34,007 nt of DNA, taken from contig JABLUY010000321.1 of the NCBI GenBank assembly GCA_013306675.1, forward strand, positions 1 through 34,007, given 5' to 3'. Position numbers and translations under genes: made by a program. This document shows positions 8,672 to 17,758 of the stretch, one piece after another (position 1 is the stretch's first letter; every line of letters starts with the position of its first letter). The notes beneath the pieces were generated by a model. That model was given only the letters and a program-made list of their open reading frames with translations, was not told the origin of the DNA and did not search any database. The DNA comes from Thraustochytrium sp. TN22. Lineage: Eukaryota > Sar > Bigyra > Thraustochytrida > Thraustochytriidae.

Positions 8672-9212
8672 CGCGCCGCGCGCGCGCGCGCGTGCGCCGG
8701 GCCCGCCGGGCTCGCTTCGTTTCGACTTTGATTGCTCTCCGCCGCTTGATCCTCCTCTCTCATGTGTTGTGTGTAGTGTGACTAAGAGCATGGATGGAAA
8801 AACCGAGAAGGGGCCTAATTTCGAACAAGCGGACCAACGTGCCGCGTGGCAGGAAGCGGCCCAAGCGCCAGTTGGGCCGATTCGCCTAACCGCGACTCAA
8901 CCATCATCGAGTCGCGGCGGGCCGGGCGATCAATCAATCTATCAAAGGCGGCTCGGCCTGCGGCGCCGCGCGGCGCGAGGGCGCGGCGTGTCGGCGGCGG
9001 CGGCCCCTGCGCGCGGCTGCCTGCGGCGCTGGCGCTCCGATCAGGCCGGGCGCGGCGGGGGAGTTTCGAACGCGCGTTAGCGGGACGCGGCGACGACGGC
9101 GCTGGTGCTGGCGCTGGTGCTGCTCGTGCTGCTGGACGAGGACGAGGAGAAGGAGAGCCGAGAGAGAGAGAGGAGAGGGACTGGGAGAAAGATAGCGAAG
9201 ACGCGAAACAGC
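8672..9212. promoter_or_regulatory. Divergent promoter region (OFD1-like / ORC5 fusion)
   Basis: A 541-bp interval separates the chosen start codons of two genes transcribed away from each other, so it must hold both promoters and leaders. It contains G+C-rich microsatellite-like sequence at about 8680-8700 and 8990-9060, a GCTGGTGCTGGCG-type repeat near 9100-9125, and purine-rich sequence at 9140-9200. No specific core promoter element is recognised. Confidence 0.5.
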
Positions 9213-9961
9213 ATGCCGAGGTCGCCGAGGCGCGCGCTGGCGCCTGTGACGCCGCGAGAGCAGATGCGACGAGACTCCGGCGCGCCGAGGAGCAAGCGCG
9301 AGCGCGCCCAGGAGGCGCAGGCGCAGGCGCAGGCGCAGGCGCAGGCGCAGGGCGGCGACAAGGCCACCTCGATGCAGACGCCCACGCAGCAGCGGCGCAA
9401 TGAAAGGCCCGCGTCGGGAAAGCAGGGCAAGAAGACCAAGCAGGCGGAAGCGGCGGTGCTGCCCAGTAGCGCAAGGCGGCCTGTCATGCTGCCCGCTGGC
9501 GACGAGCGCTCACCGGCGTCCGTGGACCTGCGCGAGTTGTACAAAGGCAAGTCGAAGGGGCCTCTGCAGAGTGTCAAGCACCTGCAGTTCGACGGCTCGC
9601 GCATGCCGTCCAAGGTGCGGGTCAGGGATCTCCGCTCTCAGTTCAGCAAGATGTGGCAGTTGCTGAGCAAGAGAGGCTGGAAATACGCCAAGCGTACAGA
9701 CAAGACCAAGACCATCGACAAGAACTTCTACATGAAGCCGCACGTTAAGCAGCCCAAGAACGGCGCGCTTGGCGTGGACATGTGGCAGAATGCGGACGAC
9801 CTTCTGGAGCACCTGGTCAAGAACAGGCGGAGCACCTACTACGACCTGTTTGAGGAGTTTTACACCCGATACCCGTCTGCAGTGCCTGCGCTTTCGGAGT
9901 CTGACTCCGAGGACGGTATTATGGCTCACATTGATGATGCGATTCTGCAGAGTCAGGCCGC

Positions 9962-10013
<52 letters not shown>

Positions 10014-13000
10014 CAGCATCCTCGCCGGCGCCGGCAGCGGCAGGATAGCGAGGCTGGTTTGGATCATCCAGGCGACGAAGACGAGAACGAGGCCGGCTTT
10101 GGAACTTCAAGGCAGCAACGCCGCAAGTCCCGCCAAGGTGGCGGCCCGAGCGCGGCGCACGCCGCAAAGCGGCGGCGGCGGTCTAGCGGCGGAGGGTGGG
10201 CTGTGGCAGGCGGCGATCTCGACGATCTGCAAGGACAGGATCGACGGCGGCCGCGGCGATCCCTTCAGGAGCAGGCGCAGGCTCGGAGCCCCGGTGCTGT
10301 GGAACGCCACCTGGGCGAGTTCGGATACGCGCACCTGCAAAAGGAGGGCTGGACGCATCGCGGCGGTAACAACCTGCACGCCTTCTGCTACCTCATGCCG
10401 GAGGTGCAAAAGAAGACGGATGGCGAGATCGGCAAGGACATGTTCATGGGCGAGGCTATGCTGGGCCGGTACATTTTGGAGCACCGGCCAGATCTGGTCC
10501 AGCTGCATGAGATCGAGCGCCGCGAGACCAAGAACGCTAGGCGCGCCGACGCGAGGCGCGCCGACGCGAGGCGGGAGCGCAAGCGCAAGCGACAGCAGCA
10601 AATGAAACAGAAGCGAGCGCGCTTTGTGCTGGAACGCGACCTGACCTTTGCCATGCTTTGGCCCAACGTGTTGCAGAGCCACCTGGGCTGGCGCTACTTT
10701 CCATACCGCGGACTGGAGGGAGCCTGGGTGTACGCGCTGCCGGAGGTGACGCTGATGAGCCACGGCGAAATGGGCGTCAACATGTGGTGCAAGGAGCAGG
10801 ACGTGGTCGACTACGTCAAGGGCGACCCGGAGCTGGCCGCGCGCGTCGAGTCCATCCTCAGGGACGACCTCGAGGACTTTCAGTATGAGGAGGCGGTGTC
10901 GAGCGCCTCGGCACCCGAGGACGACGGTGTGGCGGTCGCCACGGCTGCGCGCGGGAAGCGGCGCGTGTCCGGCGGCGCCGGCGGCCGCGCCACAGCACCG
11001 GCGCTGGCGCAAGATGAGCAGCAAGCTTCGCAGCCGCGGCCGCGGGCGGCAACGGCGAGCAGCCCGCCGGCCGCGGACGAGGCGCGCGACGGGCAGAAAC
11101 TGCCCGTGGAGAAAGCGACCAAGCGCTTCCCGCTCACGGCCAAGGCGGGCTTCCAGGAGGTCTGGCGCGTGCTCAACAAGACCATGGGCTGGGGCTACTT
11201 TCCCTACTCGGGCATTGAGGGCAGCTGGCTGTACCATCCGCCCGAGGTGAAGAGGCTATCCGAGGGCAAGCTGCACGTGAACATGTGGTGCGTCGAGCAC
11301 GAAATGCTGGAGCACGTACTCTGCACGCCGGCGCTGGCCAAGGAGGTGGAGCAGCACTTCGAGGAGGAGATCCGCGAGGCCGCCATGGAGGAGGAGTGGC
11401 GACAGGAACAGGAGAAGGAGCGTCAGCGTGTCGCGCAAAAGCAGCAAATGGTACGCCAGCGTCGAAAGGCCGAGCGCGACCGCCAGCAGCAGCTCGCGGC
11501 GGCGCGGCGGCGCAAGTCGGCGCAGCAGCTCGAGGTCCAGCGCCGCGAGCGCGAGCGCTTACGCCAGGAGCTGGCTGCCAAGCTGAGCAGCAACCTTTTG
11601 GAGCGCGCCAAGTTTCAGGATCTTTGGAACTTCTTGCGCTTCGAGCAGCACTGGAAGTACTTTCCATGGAGCGGCCTGGAGGGCAGCTTCGCGTACGCGC
11701 TGCCGCACGTGGCCAAGGCATCCGAGGGCACGGTCGGCAAGGACATGTGGTGCCGCGAGGAGGAGGTCGTGCACTTTGTACGCTCCGACCCGACCTGGTC
11801 CCGCCTCTGTGAGAGAAAGCTGCGGGAGCGCGTCTGCGAGGACTTCGCGCTGCGCATGGACGTCAGTCTGGACAGTCTGCTTCACGAGTATGGCTTGCTC
11901 CGAGATGGTGCTCCAAGCCCGGTGGCTCCCTCGGCACCCTCGGCGCAGCTTGACGCCTCCGCCTCCGCCTCCGCCTCCGCCTCTGCTAATGATGCACTCG
12001 CGGCGGAGGATTCCGTGAGTCGCGGTGCGCCAGAGGACGATGAGGCCGGTCTGGAGGTGGACGACAACGCGGATGAAGAAGCCTCCGAGCTGCACGTGCC
12101 CCAGGAGCTGGACGACGAAGCAGAGGAGGACGACCACAACGTCTCCCACACGTCACACGATGGCCACCTCGATGGGCTTGAGGACGAGGCCGACGAGGAT
12201 GATGAAGACGAGGAGGACGACGAGGAGGACGACGAGGATGAGGACGACGATGAGAATATGGACCCGGCAGAGCGCGCGCGCAGGATCGTGGACGGGGCGA
12301 CCAACCTGAACCACGTCTTCGACAGCCTGCAGAAGCTCGGGTGGAAGCAGCAGCCAAATTACGATGGCAAGGGCTCGCGGCGGTATCTGCTGCCGAACGT
12401 GACGGTGCAAACTGGAACCCTCGGGCAAGACATGTGGGCCGACCCGCAGGAGGCGCTCGAGTTTGTGCAGACTGACCCGACGTGGCGGCGCAAGCTGGAG
12501 CAGCAGCTCGTGGATGGCGGCTTCGCGGACGCGAGCCAGTCGCCTGCGCGAAGCGAAGAAGCGCGTCGCGACGACCCGCGACTGCGGGAGCGCGCACACA
12601 ACGTCTTGATGACATCCAAGTTTAGCGCCATCTGGGACATCCTCAAGTCATGCCGTTGGCGGTACTTTAGCAACAAGCGCAGCCTGGAGCACGACTGGCT
12701 GTATGCCATGCCCACGGTTCGCACCAAGGGCGCCGGCACGCTAGGGGTGGACATGTTCGACTCGGAGGAGGCGCTCGTCAGCTTCGCCAGGACCGACCCG
12801 ACCACGCGGCAGCTCTGCGAGGACTTTCTCTACGACGTGCTTCATCAGAAGGAGCTTCTGGACCAGGATCGTGAGGCGGCGCTCTCCATCGAGGACGGCG
12901 AGAGTGATGGCGAGGTCGGCCATGCTGCTGCTGATGATGATGACGACGATGACGACGATGACGACGACGAGAACGACCTGCATGCGTCCAAATACGCGCA

Positions 13001-15899
13001 GGTCATCGACCGCGCCGACCAGGGTGAGCTTTGGGAGGTGCTGCAGGACGGCTTCGGCTGGGAGCGCGTGGAGGACGCGTCGAGCGAGACGAACCTATGC
13101 TTCGTCAAGCCTGCCGACAAGTACAGCGCCACGCAGTCCTTTCCGTTCTTTTGTGACGCCAAGGACGCCGTCATCAACAACTGGTGGGAGTTGCGCCGCG
13201 ACGTGGCCAAGGTGCTCGTGTCGCGCTGGCAAGACCGCAACGACCCCAAGCTCAAACATGTGCGCGGTTGGGAAGACATCATGGCCTCGGCATTGCAGGA
13301 GGACCGTCGCGCCCAGGCTCGCCGGCCGTCGCGGCGCCGCGCGGACTCGCAACGCTCTGCGCCGCCGCATGCTGAGAACAACCCGCCCGCCGAGGTTGAC
13401 CATTTCATCGACGAGGACGAGGACGACATGGAGAGCCACGACGCGAAGGACGTGCTGGAGGCTGCTAGCTTCAATGACGTCTGGCCCATCTTGCGCAACC
13501 TCGGCTGGAACTGGTTCAGGAACTCGGGGCTAGAGGGGGCCTTTCGCTACGCGCTTCCGGAGGTGAAGAAGACCTCACACTGCAAGCTGGGCGTAAATGC
13601 ATGGGTGCGCGAGGAAGATATCCTCGAGTACGTGCGCAGGACGCCACGTTTTGCTGACGGCGTGCGGCGCGCGCTGCAAGCGGCGCGCGCTGCTGAAACG
13701 CTGGAGACCGTCAGCTCCGCTTCTGATGAGCTTGAGCGGGATGAGGATGCCAACGTGTACGATGACGAGGAGGGCGAGGAGGACGATCACGATGGCGTGT
13801 CGGAGGAAGAGGAAGAGGATGATGATGATGACGACGACGACGACGACGAGGAGGAGGAGGAGGCAAACGACGAGAACGCGACCGGCGCCGTTGTCTCCTA
13901 CGCCAAGATGCCCATGGGTCAGCTTTGGAAGCGCCTAAAGGCGCAGGGGTGGCACTACAAGCGTGGGCGCGGCCTTGTCTCGCACTACTACCTTGCGCCG
14001 CATGTGCGTACGGTGGAAGAGGGCCTTTTGGGCAAGGACATGTTCGACTCGGAGGAGGCGCTGCACGCGTACTTTCGGAAGCGCGAGTCGCGCGGGCTTG
14101 TGGACATCATCTCGCCTGCGCGGGACGACACCGAGTCAATCTGGCGCACCATGCAGGCTCAAGGCTGGCGGCAGGTCGGTGCGTGGTTCGTGAGCAGGGA
14201 AGCTGTGCCGCGCGAGGGCGACGACGAAGAGTCTTACGACGAAGACTTTTGCACGGCGTTCCGGTCCAAGAAGCGCGCCGTGGCGTCGTTTATCGTGCAG
14301 CAGCAGACTACGAGCCCGGCCATGGCGCCCCTGCGCGGGAAGAAACGGCGGCGCTCCGAGGCACTCCGCGAGGAAGAGGAGGAAGAGGCGGGGGCGGAGG
14401 CTCGGCGCCGCAACGAGGATGATGACCACGACGGCGACCGCCAGCGCAAGGCGCCGGCCAAGACGGAGAGCCCGGTGATCGAGGTGGTGGAGGCTGATGA
14501 GAACGAGGAGGAGCACCTTCCGGAGGAAATTACCGAGGAGGACTTCTGGGACGACGTTTGGCCGGTTCTGGCCAAGATGGGATGGGTGCGCACGCGGCGC
14601 AAGAGCCGCAGCGGCCGCGTTACGCGCGGCTTTCGCGGCCCGGTCGGCGAGGGTGGCAAGCCGGTGGACTTCGCGCGTGTCTCAAACGTGTGCTCCTTTC
14701 TGCGCGAGCATCAGGCCACGCATGGTGGCGAGCGCGCCGAGGAGGAGGACGAGGGCGACGAGGAGTCCTCGGACGGCGAGGACTCGGAGGCGACGCGCCA
14801 GTTTAACGAGTACGTGCAGACGCTGCGCGACGTGCAGCCGCGCCCGGAGAACTTCTTTAAGGTGTTCTACCCGATCCTGCGCGAGGCCGGCTGGCGGTAC
14901 AAGTACGGGACCGGAATCGCTCGTGAGCTGTTCTTTGCGCCCGGCGTGACGCGCGCCAAGGACGCCATCAAGGGCGAAACGCTAATCGAGTCGCGTGAGG
15001 CCATGTGTGACTGGATCAAGGTGAACCGTGGCGCCATCTGCGAGAGTCTACGGGAGGCCCTTATGCCGGCGCCGGAGCACGAGAGCGACAACGAAAGTGT
15101 GCCCGAGGACGAAGACGAGGAAGACCAGGATCGAGAGAACGAGGGCCCTGGCGGCTCTCGCCAGGCTTCCCACGAAGTGAACGAGAACGAGAACGAGGAT
15201 GACGAGGATGATCAGCATCACGCCGTCGCCATGGACGTGGACGAGGATGACGAGCTCAGCCACAACATTGTGATGCGGAACGAAGACAGTCGCGCGAGCG
15301 CCGGGGCTCCGGGCGAGTCGCATGACGAGCATGACGAACTGGAAGACGACGACCACCACGAAATGCGAGAGGACGACGGAGCGCCTCGGCTCAGCAAGCG
15401 CCACGACCGCACGGCCGCGGCTATGCGGTACGAACATCCATCTGGGATGGCGCTCGCTGAGGAGTTTGCGGGTGTACGGCACGCCACGACGGAACTCAAG
15501 CAGGCATGGCCGGGTCGTGAAGAGCAAATCGACCTTTTGGCGGGCCTCATGGGCCCGCGGCACCTGCTCACTGGCCACCTGCTTCTGCACGGTGACACGG
15601 CGACCGGCAAGACGGGCGTCATCCGCGCACTGCTGGAAGCGCTCGAGTACCCTTTCGCCGCCGTAGACTGCAACGAGTGCTACGCGCCCAGCATCCTCTT
15701 CCAGCGTCTGCTCTCGCAGATGCCGGAGCCCGTGTCGTCAGCTTTGGGCAGGGAGCACATGGATGCCGAGGACGCAATTGTGGCCTCGGACGATGAAGAC
15801 GTGGAGCCGGACGAAGACTCGTACCTGCAGCGCAAAAACCGCAACATCGAGGAGAATCGCGCTGTGCTGGAGAGTCTCGGCATTGTGGTCTCCCCGGGT

Positions 15900-15933
<34 letters not shown>

Positions 15934-17120
15934 AGCCGCGGGCGGCGTTGGCAGCGCCGGCCGGCGGATATGACGAGGGCGCACCGGAGGGCGCCGAGGG
16001 CGAGGAGGCACCGGTCGAATCGCGCAAGCTGGGCCAATTGGCCGCGCGCTGCAGCACGATGCGCGAGTTCGCGCTAAAGCTCGCTCAGCGGCTCGGGCCC
16101 GCGCGCGAGGCCAAGCAGACCTTCTACTTGTTGCTGGAGAACGCAGCGGCGCTCGAGGATCTTGGCGCCAAGCTCCTGCCAGCCCTTCTCAAGCTGGAAC
16201 GATCGACCGGCTGCAACGTCAGCGTCATCCTGACGTCGACCGACCTGCCGGACTCGATGGGCCTTGTGCTGCGCAGTGCGCCTGTGTGCTTCGTGGAGTT
16301 CCCGGCGTACTCGCAGATGGAGCAGCGCAAGATTCTGTCGTTGCAACTGGCGCAGCGCGCCGCCTCGCAGGCGGGCGGCAGCAAGTACTCGGAGGCGGAT
16401 CTGCGCGCCTTCGTATCGACCGTGCTGCAGACGTTCTCTGCGCAAGTGCGCGACCTGCGCGAGGTCTCGCGCATCTGCATGGACCTTTGGGACGCGCTCA
16501 TGCGCAAGCCCGAGCTTGCGGGCAAGCCGCACACGGCGCTGCGCGTTGCGTTGGAAGGTCGCATCGGGCTCACCTTCAAAATGCTGTACCACCACGACTT
16601 TGAGCTCGAGGCGCGCGCCGAGAACCCAACCGCTGGTATGCTGGACCGCTGGGAGAGGGATGAAATTAAGCGTGCGGCGGACCTGCCTTACGACGCCAAG
16701 GTCGTCCTGCTGGCCGCCTTTCTCGGATCATACAACAGTGCCGAGCATGACCGCGCTATCTTCGGCACCGCTCGCAAGCTGTCGAATCGCCAGAAGCAAC
16801 ACAATGCCGCCGCGACCCGCAAGGCTGCCGCCTCAAACGCAGGCCAGCTGCTCCTGGGCCCCAAGGTCTTCAGCCTCGAGCGCCTCGTCGGTCTGTATCG
16901 CTCGCTTACCGACATGGTGGGCGGCTTTGACTCGGGTCGCCCCGCCAACCATGTAGTGCACAAGCAGGTGGCCTCGCTCACGAGTGCCGGGCTTTTGACT
17001 CGCACCTCGCGCCCCGATGAGCTGGACGTTGTCAAGCTCAAGTGCAATGTGCCGTTGGAGTTTGCTCAGGCCCTCGCGGAGACCGTCAAGGTCGATCTGC
17101 CCAATCTTCTCGAGGCCTAA
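9213..17120 (+). CDS. ORC5: Origin recognition complex subunit 5 fused to an N-terminal array of 13 Trp-rich repeats
   Basis: A single 2635-residue frame. Start: first ATG in frame, A at -3. Residues 1-140 are basic. About 144-1942 carry 13 copies of a roughly 60-residue unit: F..[VI]W..L, GW.YF, YxxPxV, then LGVDMW..EE and a short helix. Copies are joined by polyGln, basic coiled-coil and polyAsp/Glu linkers. The last 540 residues are ORC5: Walker A GDTATGKT (2127-2134), YLLLEN at the Walker B position (Glu 2309), and a C-terminal region with LLAAFLGSYN, LLGPKVFSLERL and KCNVPLEFAQALAETV, as in ORC5 winged-helix sequence. The ATPase core has an insert of about 100 residues with acidic and polyGly runs. 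ORC5 is normally 400-500 residues and binds origins as part of ORC. The repeats probably add DNA or chromatin contacts (inference). No stop, frameshift or splice consensus separates the two halves. Confidence 0.92.
9963..10016 (+). repeat. CAG/CAA tract coding 18 glutamines
   Basis: Thirteen CAG codons, three CAA and a final CAG surround the 3' end of a tract between repeat copies 1 and 2 of the ORC5 fusion. By base position the run is 54 nt, or 18 Gln. Most of it is pure CAG and so is a probable length polymorphism. Confidence 0.9.
12937..12972 (+). repeat. GAT/GAC tract coding polyaspartate
   Basis: A run of Asp codons lies in the linker between repeat copies 7 and 8. A second Asp-then-Glu run lies at about 13815-13864, between copies 9 and 10. 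Further Asp/Glu-rich linkers are at about 12170-12255 and 15090-15380. Such tracts are common in histone- and chromatin-binding proteins. Confidence 0.85.
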
Positions 17121-17758
17121 ACTTACCAGCGCACGCGCTCGTGCGCTTGTGCCTGAGAACCTGACGATAACAACCCGACGACAACCTGACCACAACCCTG
17201 ACAACAACCCCCCTCCCCCCCCCTGAGCCCTTCTTTAGAAGCTTTGGTGGCCGAGACGGCAGGGCAGTCGCTTTCGACATTTCCAAGTCAAGTGATCAAT
17301 TTGAAGTCGACTCATATATACTTTCGCGAGGTTTGTACTGTCCACGTCGCCACTTGGTCAACTGTCCCTGTCATGCTCCGGTGTGAAATAGGATATTTTG
17401 GCGTTGCCTCAGCGTGTCTCTCAAAAGGCTTGGCTCGACACCCTCTTGCGAGTCATGTTCCCGCCAGCGATCCCGAAATGAAGGCACACGCCGCGAACGC
17501 AGCACTCACGTTGCCTGCGACCAACCTGGGCTGCTCGTACACAACTAAACCACCCTCTGACCATGGATCAAGTCATGCTGCGACCCTCCCTCGAGAGAGA
17601 GACGAAGCGAACCTCTTTGAAGGACTTCCTGCCTCGAGCACGACGCTGCTCGCCGTCACCGTGTGATCAGTGCGATTAGTAGCATGTTCCCACATCCAGG
17701 GCCTCCACGCAGCCGTACCCGGGACTCTTCGGACCCTTTCGGGCCCTTTCGGGCCCTT
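17121..17758. other. Convergent intergenic region (ORC5 fusion / CFAP97-like)
   Basis: A 638-bp interval between facing stop codons. It holds a CAACCTGAC/ACAACC-rich stretch at about 17160-17205, a C-run interrupted by one T at about 17206-17222, and three tandem units of CCCTTTCGGG at about 17734-17760 abutting the stop of the downstream minus-strand gene. Base composition is more balanced than in the genes. No coding region is supported. Confidence 0.6.

Follow-up and report, generated by a model that had tools for sequence, protein, structure and literature searches.

An ORC5 gene of Thraustochytrium sp. TN22 with a long N-terminal array of repeated domains: a possible chromatin tether for ORC

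Eukaryotes that lack sequence-specific origins raise the question of how their origin recognition complex (ORC) is brought to chromatin. The gene described here lies in a window of 34,007 bases of the Thraustochytrium sp. TN22 genome (the full stretch analyzed, contig C246:1–34007, in an assembly of 37.9 Mb and 453 contigs), and encodes in one open frame an array of repeated domains followed by a complete ORC5 subunit. N-terminal tethering of ORC by other subunits is established, and the tethers covered in the consulted portion of PMC11077064 are located on Orc1 and Orc4. In fission yeast, AT-hooks at the N terminus of Orc4 initially hold ORC on chromatin, without ATP, and in the fly a disordered region of Orc1 is required for recruitment (PMC11077064).

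Schizosaccharomyces pombe Orc4 resembles the protein considered here in that a repeated N-terminal element is present on an ORC subunit, and tethering is ATP-independent there (PMC11077064) and is predicted to be so here. It differs in that the subunit is Orc4 rather than ORC5 and that the elements are AT-hook motifs, whereas those in the present array are predicted folded domains. Metazoan Orc1, which carries an intrinsically disordered region and a BAH domain, likewise has a chromatin tether at the N terminus of an ORC subunit (PMC11077064), an arrangement that we propose here by analogy. However, that tether consists of disordered basic sequence and a single BAH domain, whereas in the present case the subunit is ORC5 and the extension comprises ~13 predicted folded units whose later linkers are acidic.

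A long N-terminal extension on ORC5 itself is described for Plasmodium falciparum PfORC5 (899 aa), although its homology domain begins at residue 484 and its extension is rich in asparagine, aspartate, and lysine repeats (PMC2610387, as excerpted), in contrast to the ~2,070 residues with folded repeated domains predicted here. Chloroplastida ORC1 offers a lineage-specific gain of an extra domain in the form of an inserted PHD (PMC7058166), but the subunit is ORC1, the PHD is single, and neither an array nor ORC5 is involved in the portion of that account consulted. Long extensions of ORC subunits are thus already known, from PfORC5 and from the Chloroplastida ORC1 insertion. In the literature surveyed, which included parts of PMC11077064, PMC2610387, and PMC7058166, no ORC5 with arrayed folded domains was found.

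The frame runs uninterrupted for 2,635 codons, and its earliest in-frame ATG is at position 9213. It is laid out as 13 units of ~70 aa across residues 143 to 1950, followed by a complete, single-copy ORC5. The principal features are as follows.

9213..17120 (+): array and ORC5 in one open frame, 2,635 aa, ~298 kDa (frame reading, translation)
15423..17120 (+): ORC5 core, from the in-frame Met just before the homology to the stop (Pfam, PDB homology)
15591..15614 (+): intact Walker A, GDTATGKT (aligned with GHTASGKT of human ORC5)

Judged by its Pfam and PDB sequence matches, the C-terminal part of the protein, 565 residues from residue ~2071 onward, is a complete ORC5. The ORC5_C model (PF14630) matches positions 16683–17105 with 93 bits against a cut-off of 28.2 and is covered from profile position 1 to 153 of 155, and AAA_16 matches 15507–16229 with 56.3 bits (cut-off 32.6). 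All six PDB sequences found at E≤0.01 are ORC5, the best being human ORC5 (E=1.9e-34). Together with the open frame, the array described below, and the intact Walker A, these matches bear out the original prediction of one uninterrupted frame with an array and then a complete ORC5. The N-terminal 2,070 residues also agree with the ~2000 extra residues that had been anticipated, whereas the array itself, given there as "1.8-kb-residue", should read ~1,800 residues. In the 37.9-Mb assembly, PF14630 has a single match, the ORC5 of the window, and genes for ORC2 and ORC4 were likewise found. Within the AAA part of ORC5 there is also an insert of ~100 residues (window 15741–16046) that is acidic and then runs into 12 consecutive glycines.

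To score the repeats, the 13 units were aligned and each was compared with a hidden Markov model (HMM) of the other canonical units (leave-one-out) and with 999 shuffles of its own sequence. In the list below, bit scores are from this leave-one-out comparison unless another scan is named.

9639..9863 (+): unit 1, canonical, basic (isoelectric point 9.7), 47.6 bits
10317..10520 (+): unit 2, canonical, 37.5 bits
10644..10859 (+): unit 3, canonical, structure predicted, 77.0 bits
11148..11360 (+): unit 4, canonical, 67.8 bits
11607..11822 (+): unit 5, canonical, 85.9 bits
12303..12509 (+): unit 6, canonical, 49.0 bits
12618..12830 (+): unit 7, canonical, with a paralogue on contig C11, 65.5 bits
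13017..13286 (+): unit 8, degenerate type with an extended C-terminal part and a 51% identical paralogue on C11, 10.9 bits
13467..13676 (+): unit 9, canonical, 73.8 bits
13914..14120 (+): unit 10, canonical, weak DUF7650 match, 56.0 bits
14127..14309 (+): unit 11, degenerate, 7.8 bits (above 999 shuffles) and 0.6 bits in the whole-protein scan
14541..14708 (+): unit 12, degenerate, weak DUF7650 match (17.6 bits), 11.7 bits and 5.2 bits in the whole-protein scan
14853..15062 (+): unit 13, canonical but divergent, 24.2 bits

Every one of the 13 units outscores all 999 of its shuffles, and the ten canonical units reach 24.2 to 85.9 bits. The scores of units 8, 11, and 12 are low, and the shuffle test favors these three somewhat, since they were selected from the protein by visual inspection; when the whole protein was scanned with a profile built without them, they scored 0.8, 0.6, and 5.2 bits, respectively. 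Thus, the 13 repeats counted originally are all distinguishable from their shuffles, but they are better described as ten clear and three degenerate units.

The array is joined to ORC5 by a linker whose reading determines whether there is one gene or two.

15063..15422 (+): acidic linker from array to ORC5, 120 residues, open in the coding frame only (stop counts, composition)

Between 14700 and 15600, the coding frame holds no stop, whereas the other two frames hold 5 and 13. The G+C contents at codon positions 1, 2, and 3 across the linker (0.71/0.39/0.75 and 0.78/0.41/0.75) are coding values and are unlike those of the flanks at 8795–9080 (0.68/0.76/0.68) and 17123–17700 (0.54/0.58/0.56). 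Because 476 of 10,000 linker shuffles at the same base composition are equally open in one frame, openness alone is modest evidence for a fusion; more weight falls on the codon-position signature and on the resemblance to other linkers. An arrangement of two transcription units, in which the array is a gene of its own upstream of an ORC5 of normal size whose promoter lies in the linker, or a stop hidden by an assembly error, could draw on this chance openness, on the in-frame ATGs at 15423 and 15447 close to the start of ORC5 homology, and on the fact that the junction DNA is single-copy in the assembly and so lacks a second copy for cross-checking. However, the joining linker is acidic, as several linkers within the array are, and the passage from array to ORC5 is stop-free with an unbroken codon-position signature. 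Because the linker keeps this signature and only the array-ORC5 frame is open, two separate genes are unlikely, and we regard two transcription units as improbable. At the level of DNA, the fusion is supported by these same features together with the single ORC5_C match.

The unit is also present in two other genes. The genome was searched with five single-unit queries, whose copy counts are to be read as "at least", and among the matches listed only contigs C11 and C438 were hit outside the ORC5 gene. The protein on C438 (an open reading frame of 1,312 aa, L021:1849–5787, +) bears two units, the first at L021:2611–2850, which score 33.9 and 42.3 bits, respectively, when the profile is built exclusively from ORC5 units, with none of 999 shuffles reaching the score in either case. 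It also gives a weak BRCT_2 match and is possibly a chromatin or DNA-damage protein. The frame on C11 (~127969–138000, reverse strand) spans 3,580 codons with polyglutamine stretches, an AP2 domain (51.5 bits), and a single canonical unit, whose score of 55.5 bits is reached by none of 999 shuffles.

On C11, the paralogue of unit 8 precedes that of unit 7, which is the reverse of their order in ORC5. The existence of this 51% identical paralogue marks unit 8 as a separate type that is itself conserved. Against the canonical profile, the paralogue scores 3.4 bits, a value reached by 19 of 999 shuffles, and because it does not stand out in this comparison, the kinship of the unit-8 type to the other units rests on unit 8 itself. 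Taken as a whole, the unit looks like a module common to nuclear-type proteins rather than a decoration private to ORC5, and its recurrence beside an AP2 domain and a weak BRCT-like match points to a nuclear binding module. The ORC4 gene of the same genome (contig C448:67407–71121, reverse strand, 1,238 codons) also has a long low-complexity part with KEEQER-type repeats ahead of its AAA domain and in the same frame; no array-unit match was listed when this locus was scanned with the unit HMM.

Structure prediction of the repeats, which had been recommended at the outset, gave a confident compact domain for the unit (AlphaFold; for unit 3, AF2 predicted local distance difference test scores of 93.6 and 94.4) with the predicted order helix, two strands, helix, helix. 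In an alignment of 13 units (ten from ORC5, two from C438, and one from C11), residues L11, W17, P34, and V36 (unit 3 numbering) are invariant in all 13. These results bear on the possibility that the array is a lineage-specific expansion of little function. Such an expansion would have a parallel in the repeat-rich N-terminal extension of the 899-residue PfORC5 (PMC2610387, in the part consulted), and the ORC4 of the same genome too has a long low-complexity part before its AAA domain. Yet canonical units that are predicted to fold and that keep the L11, W17, P34, and V36 core would be unexpected for neutral low-complexity sequence, and we consider this explanation quite improbable.

The only Pfam model matched by more than one unit is DUF7650 (PF24662), a domain of unknown function known from plant proteins. 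Its matches are weak and fall on profile positions 23 to 68, with 17.6 bits (E 0.0038) for unit 12, 13.3 for unit 10, and 13.9 for the first C438 unit; they appeared for 3 of 10 units in one scan and for 2 of 13 in each of two others. In all three units, two conserved Trp residues (W..L...GW) occupy identical profile positions, a register derived from the match limits. However, no unit reaches the cut-off of 27 bits, the matches do not extend beyond the first half of the unit, and most units have no match. DUF7650 may be distantly related to this half, and we treat it as a lead rather than as a family assignment. Profile searches of PDB sequences with the units yielded nothing below E 0.4, and the unit is apparently an undescribed small domain.

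An identity as an MBD or TAM methyl-DNA reader was considered but failed at the level of sequence, since PF01429 is listed for none of the 13 units at E≤10 and profile–profile comparison with five MBDs (hhalign) failed, with a probability of 0.4%. Hence, the tether to modified DNA that had been envisaged finds no backing in an MBD identity of the units. The likeness, visible by eye only, consists of a GW, a hairpin, a Y..P, and a helix in the same order, whereas the array units start with a helix in the predicted models, and the MBD core is not known to have such an initial helix. Elsewhere in the genome, one protein on contig C237 (~10710–10844, reverse strand) matches the bromodomain, FYRN, MBD, and RAMA (restriction enzyme adenine methylase associated) models, each above its cut-off, and looks like a protein that recognizes modified DNA and chromatin.

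The linkers of the array change in character along the protein, and three of the later segments are particularly acidic.

12192..12254 (+): polyacidic run of 21 Asp/Glu in the unit 5–6 linker (composition)
12933..12971 (+): polyacidic run of 13 Asp/Glu (composition)
13803..13862 (+): polyacidic run of 20 Asp/Glu (composition)

The predicted polyacidic linkers are thus real, but they occur only after unit 5: linkers ahead of it are neutral or basic, and several past it are strongly acidic, with net charges of −51, −21, −36, and −37. No AT-hook GRP core was found in the array; the sole GRP of the protein (residue 2575) belongs to the ORC5 core.

The frame, the repeats, the ORC5 identity, and the recurrence of the unit in two other genes are observed, whereas chromatin binding, avidity, and any part played in origin choice are inferred from them. 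The C-terminal 565 residues would act as an ordinary ORC5 and join the ORC ring, and the N-terminal 2,070 residues would present ten clear and three degenerate folded domains of ~70 residues on flexible linkers, the later of which are strongly acidic. Each copy of the unit would most likely bind chromatin weakly, through DNA or histones, and with many copies on one subunit, ORC would be held on chromatin with high avidity and independently of ATP before closing around DNA. By analogy, the array would do the job of the Orc4 AT-hooks or the Orc1 disordered region, with folded modules and avidity. Such a role is plausible because the unit recurs beside an AP2 domain and a weak BRCT-like match and because N-terminal tethers are known on other ORC subunits. 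That the array serves as a multivalent chromatin tether for ORC within one 2,635-residue protein is a proposal for which we judge the prospects evenly balanced. A more far-reaching version is tentative and rather doubtful: here ORC5 would be a dedicated ORC anchor whose array, made of an undescribed chromatin-reader domain common to other nuclear proteins of the lineage, positions or clusters origins via histones or DNA.

Several observations weigh against a chromatin tether. The net charge of the canonical units varies from −4 to +6, a spread that does not suggest a uniform set of DNA binders and does not favor plain electrostatic DNA binding by all of them. No Pfam model exceeded its cut-off in scans of the units, and comparison of two predicted unit models with the PDB gave no convincing fold match of any kind. 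With unit 3 as the query against the whole genome, no copy outside the ORC5 gene was found at E≤0.1 among the matches listed. The BRCT_2 match of the C438 protein reaches 18.3 bits, under the curated cut-off of 27.3, and a PDB sequence search with its C-terminal (BRCT-like) region returned nothing at E≤1. Sites of the cyclin-dependent kinase type number three in the N-terminal part, which is no clear enrichment (249 of 2000 shuffles reach three), and the internal ATG at 15423 or 15447 could additionally yield a short ORC5.

The mixed charge of the units, the long acidic linkers, and the weak BRCT-like match of the C438 sister protein would also suit a protein–protein scaffold, in which the units bind one another or partners such as helicase loaders and checkpoint proteins and thereby bring replication factors together, with no direct binding to chromatin. 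BRCT domains often serve protein–protein contact. However, the C11 sister protein bears AP2, a DNA-binding domain, which fits chromatin equally well, and this scaffold, the main rival to a chromatin tether, appears unlikely to us.

Provided that this ORC5 is expressed in the form described here, a chromatin tether of the proposed kind would mean that another subunit has been made the anchor, with an array of folded modules, and, if the more far-reaching version is true, origins would be specified in a mode not known for ORC5. The modules of the array would offer an experimental handle on origin use.

The neighbors of the ORC5 gene in the window are eukaryotic in type and encode a cyclic-nucleotide-binding kinase, a LisH protein, a CFAP97/IQ protein, and a formin, and G+C content is high throughout (0.585–0.738 per kb). 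The genome encodes a PfaA-type polyunsaturated fatty acid synthase (TIGR02813, 2539.7 bits when neighboring matches in the frame are included), which, taken with the high G+C content, points to a thraustochytrid. A further open frame of 5,691 codons on contig C410 (~25857–39995, reverse strand) matches portions of the PfaA polyketide-type model several times, which suggests a giant polyketide-type synthase.

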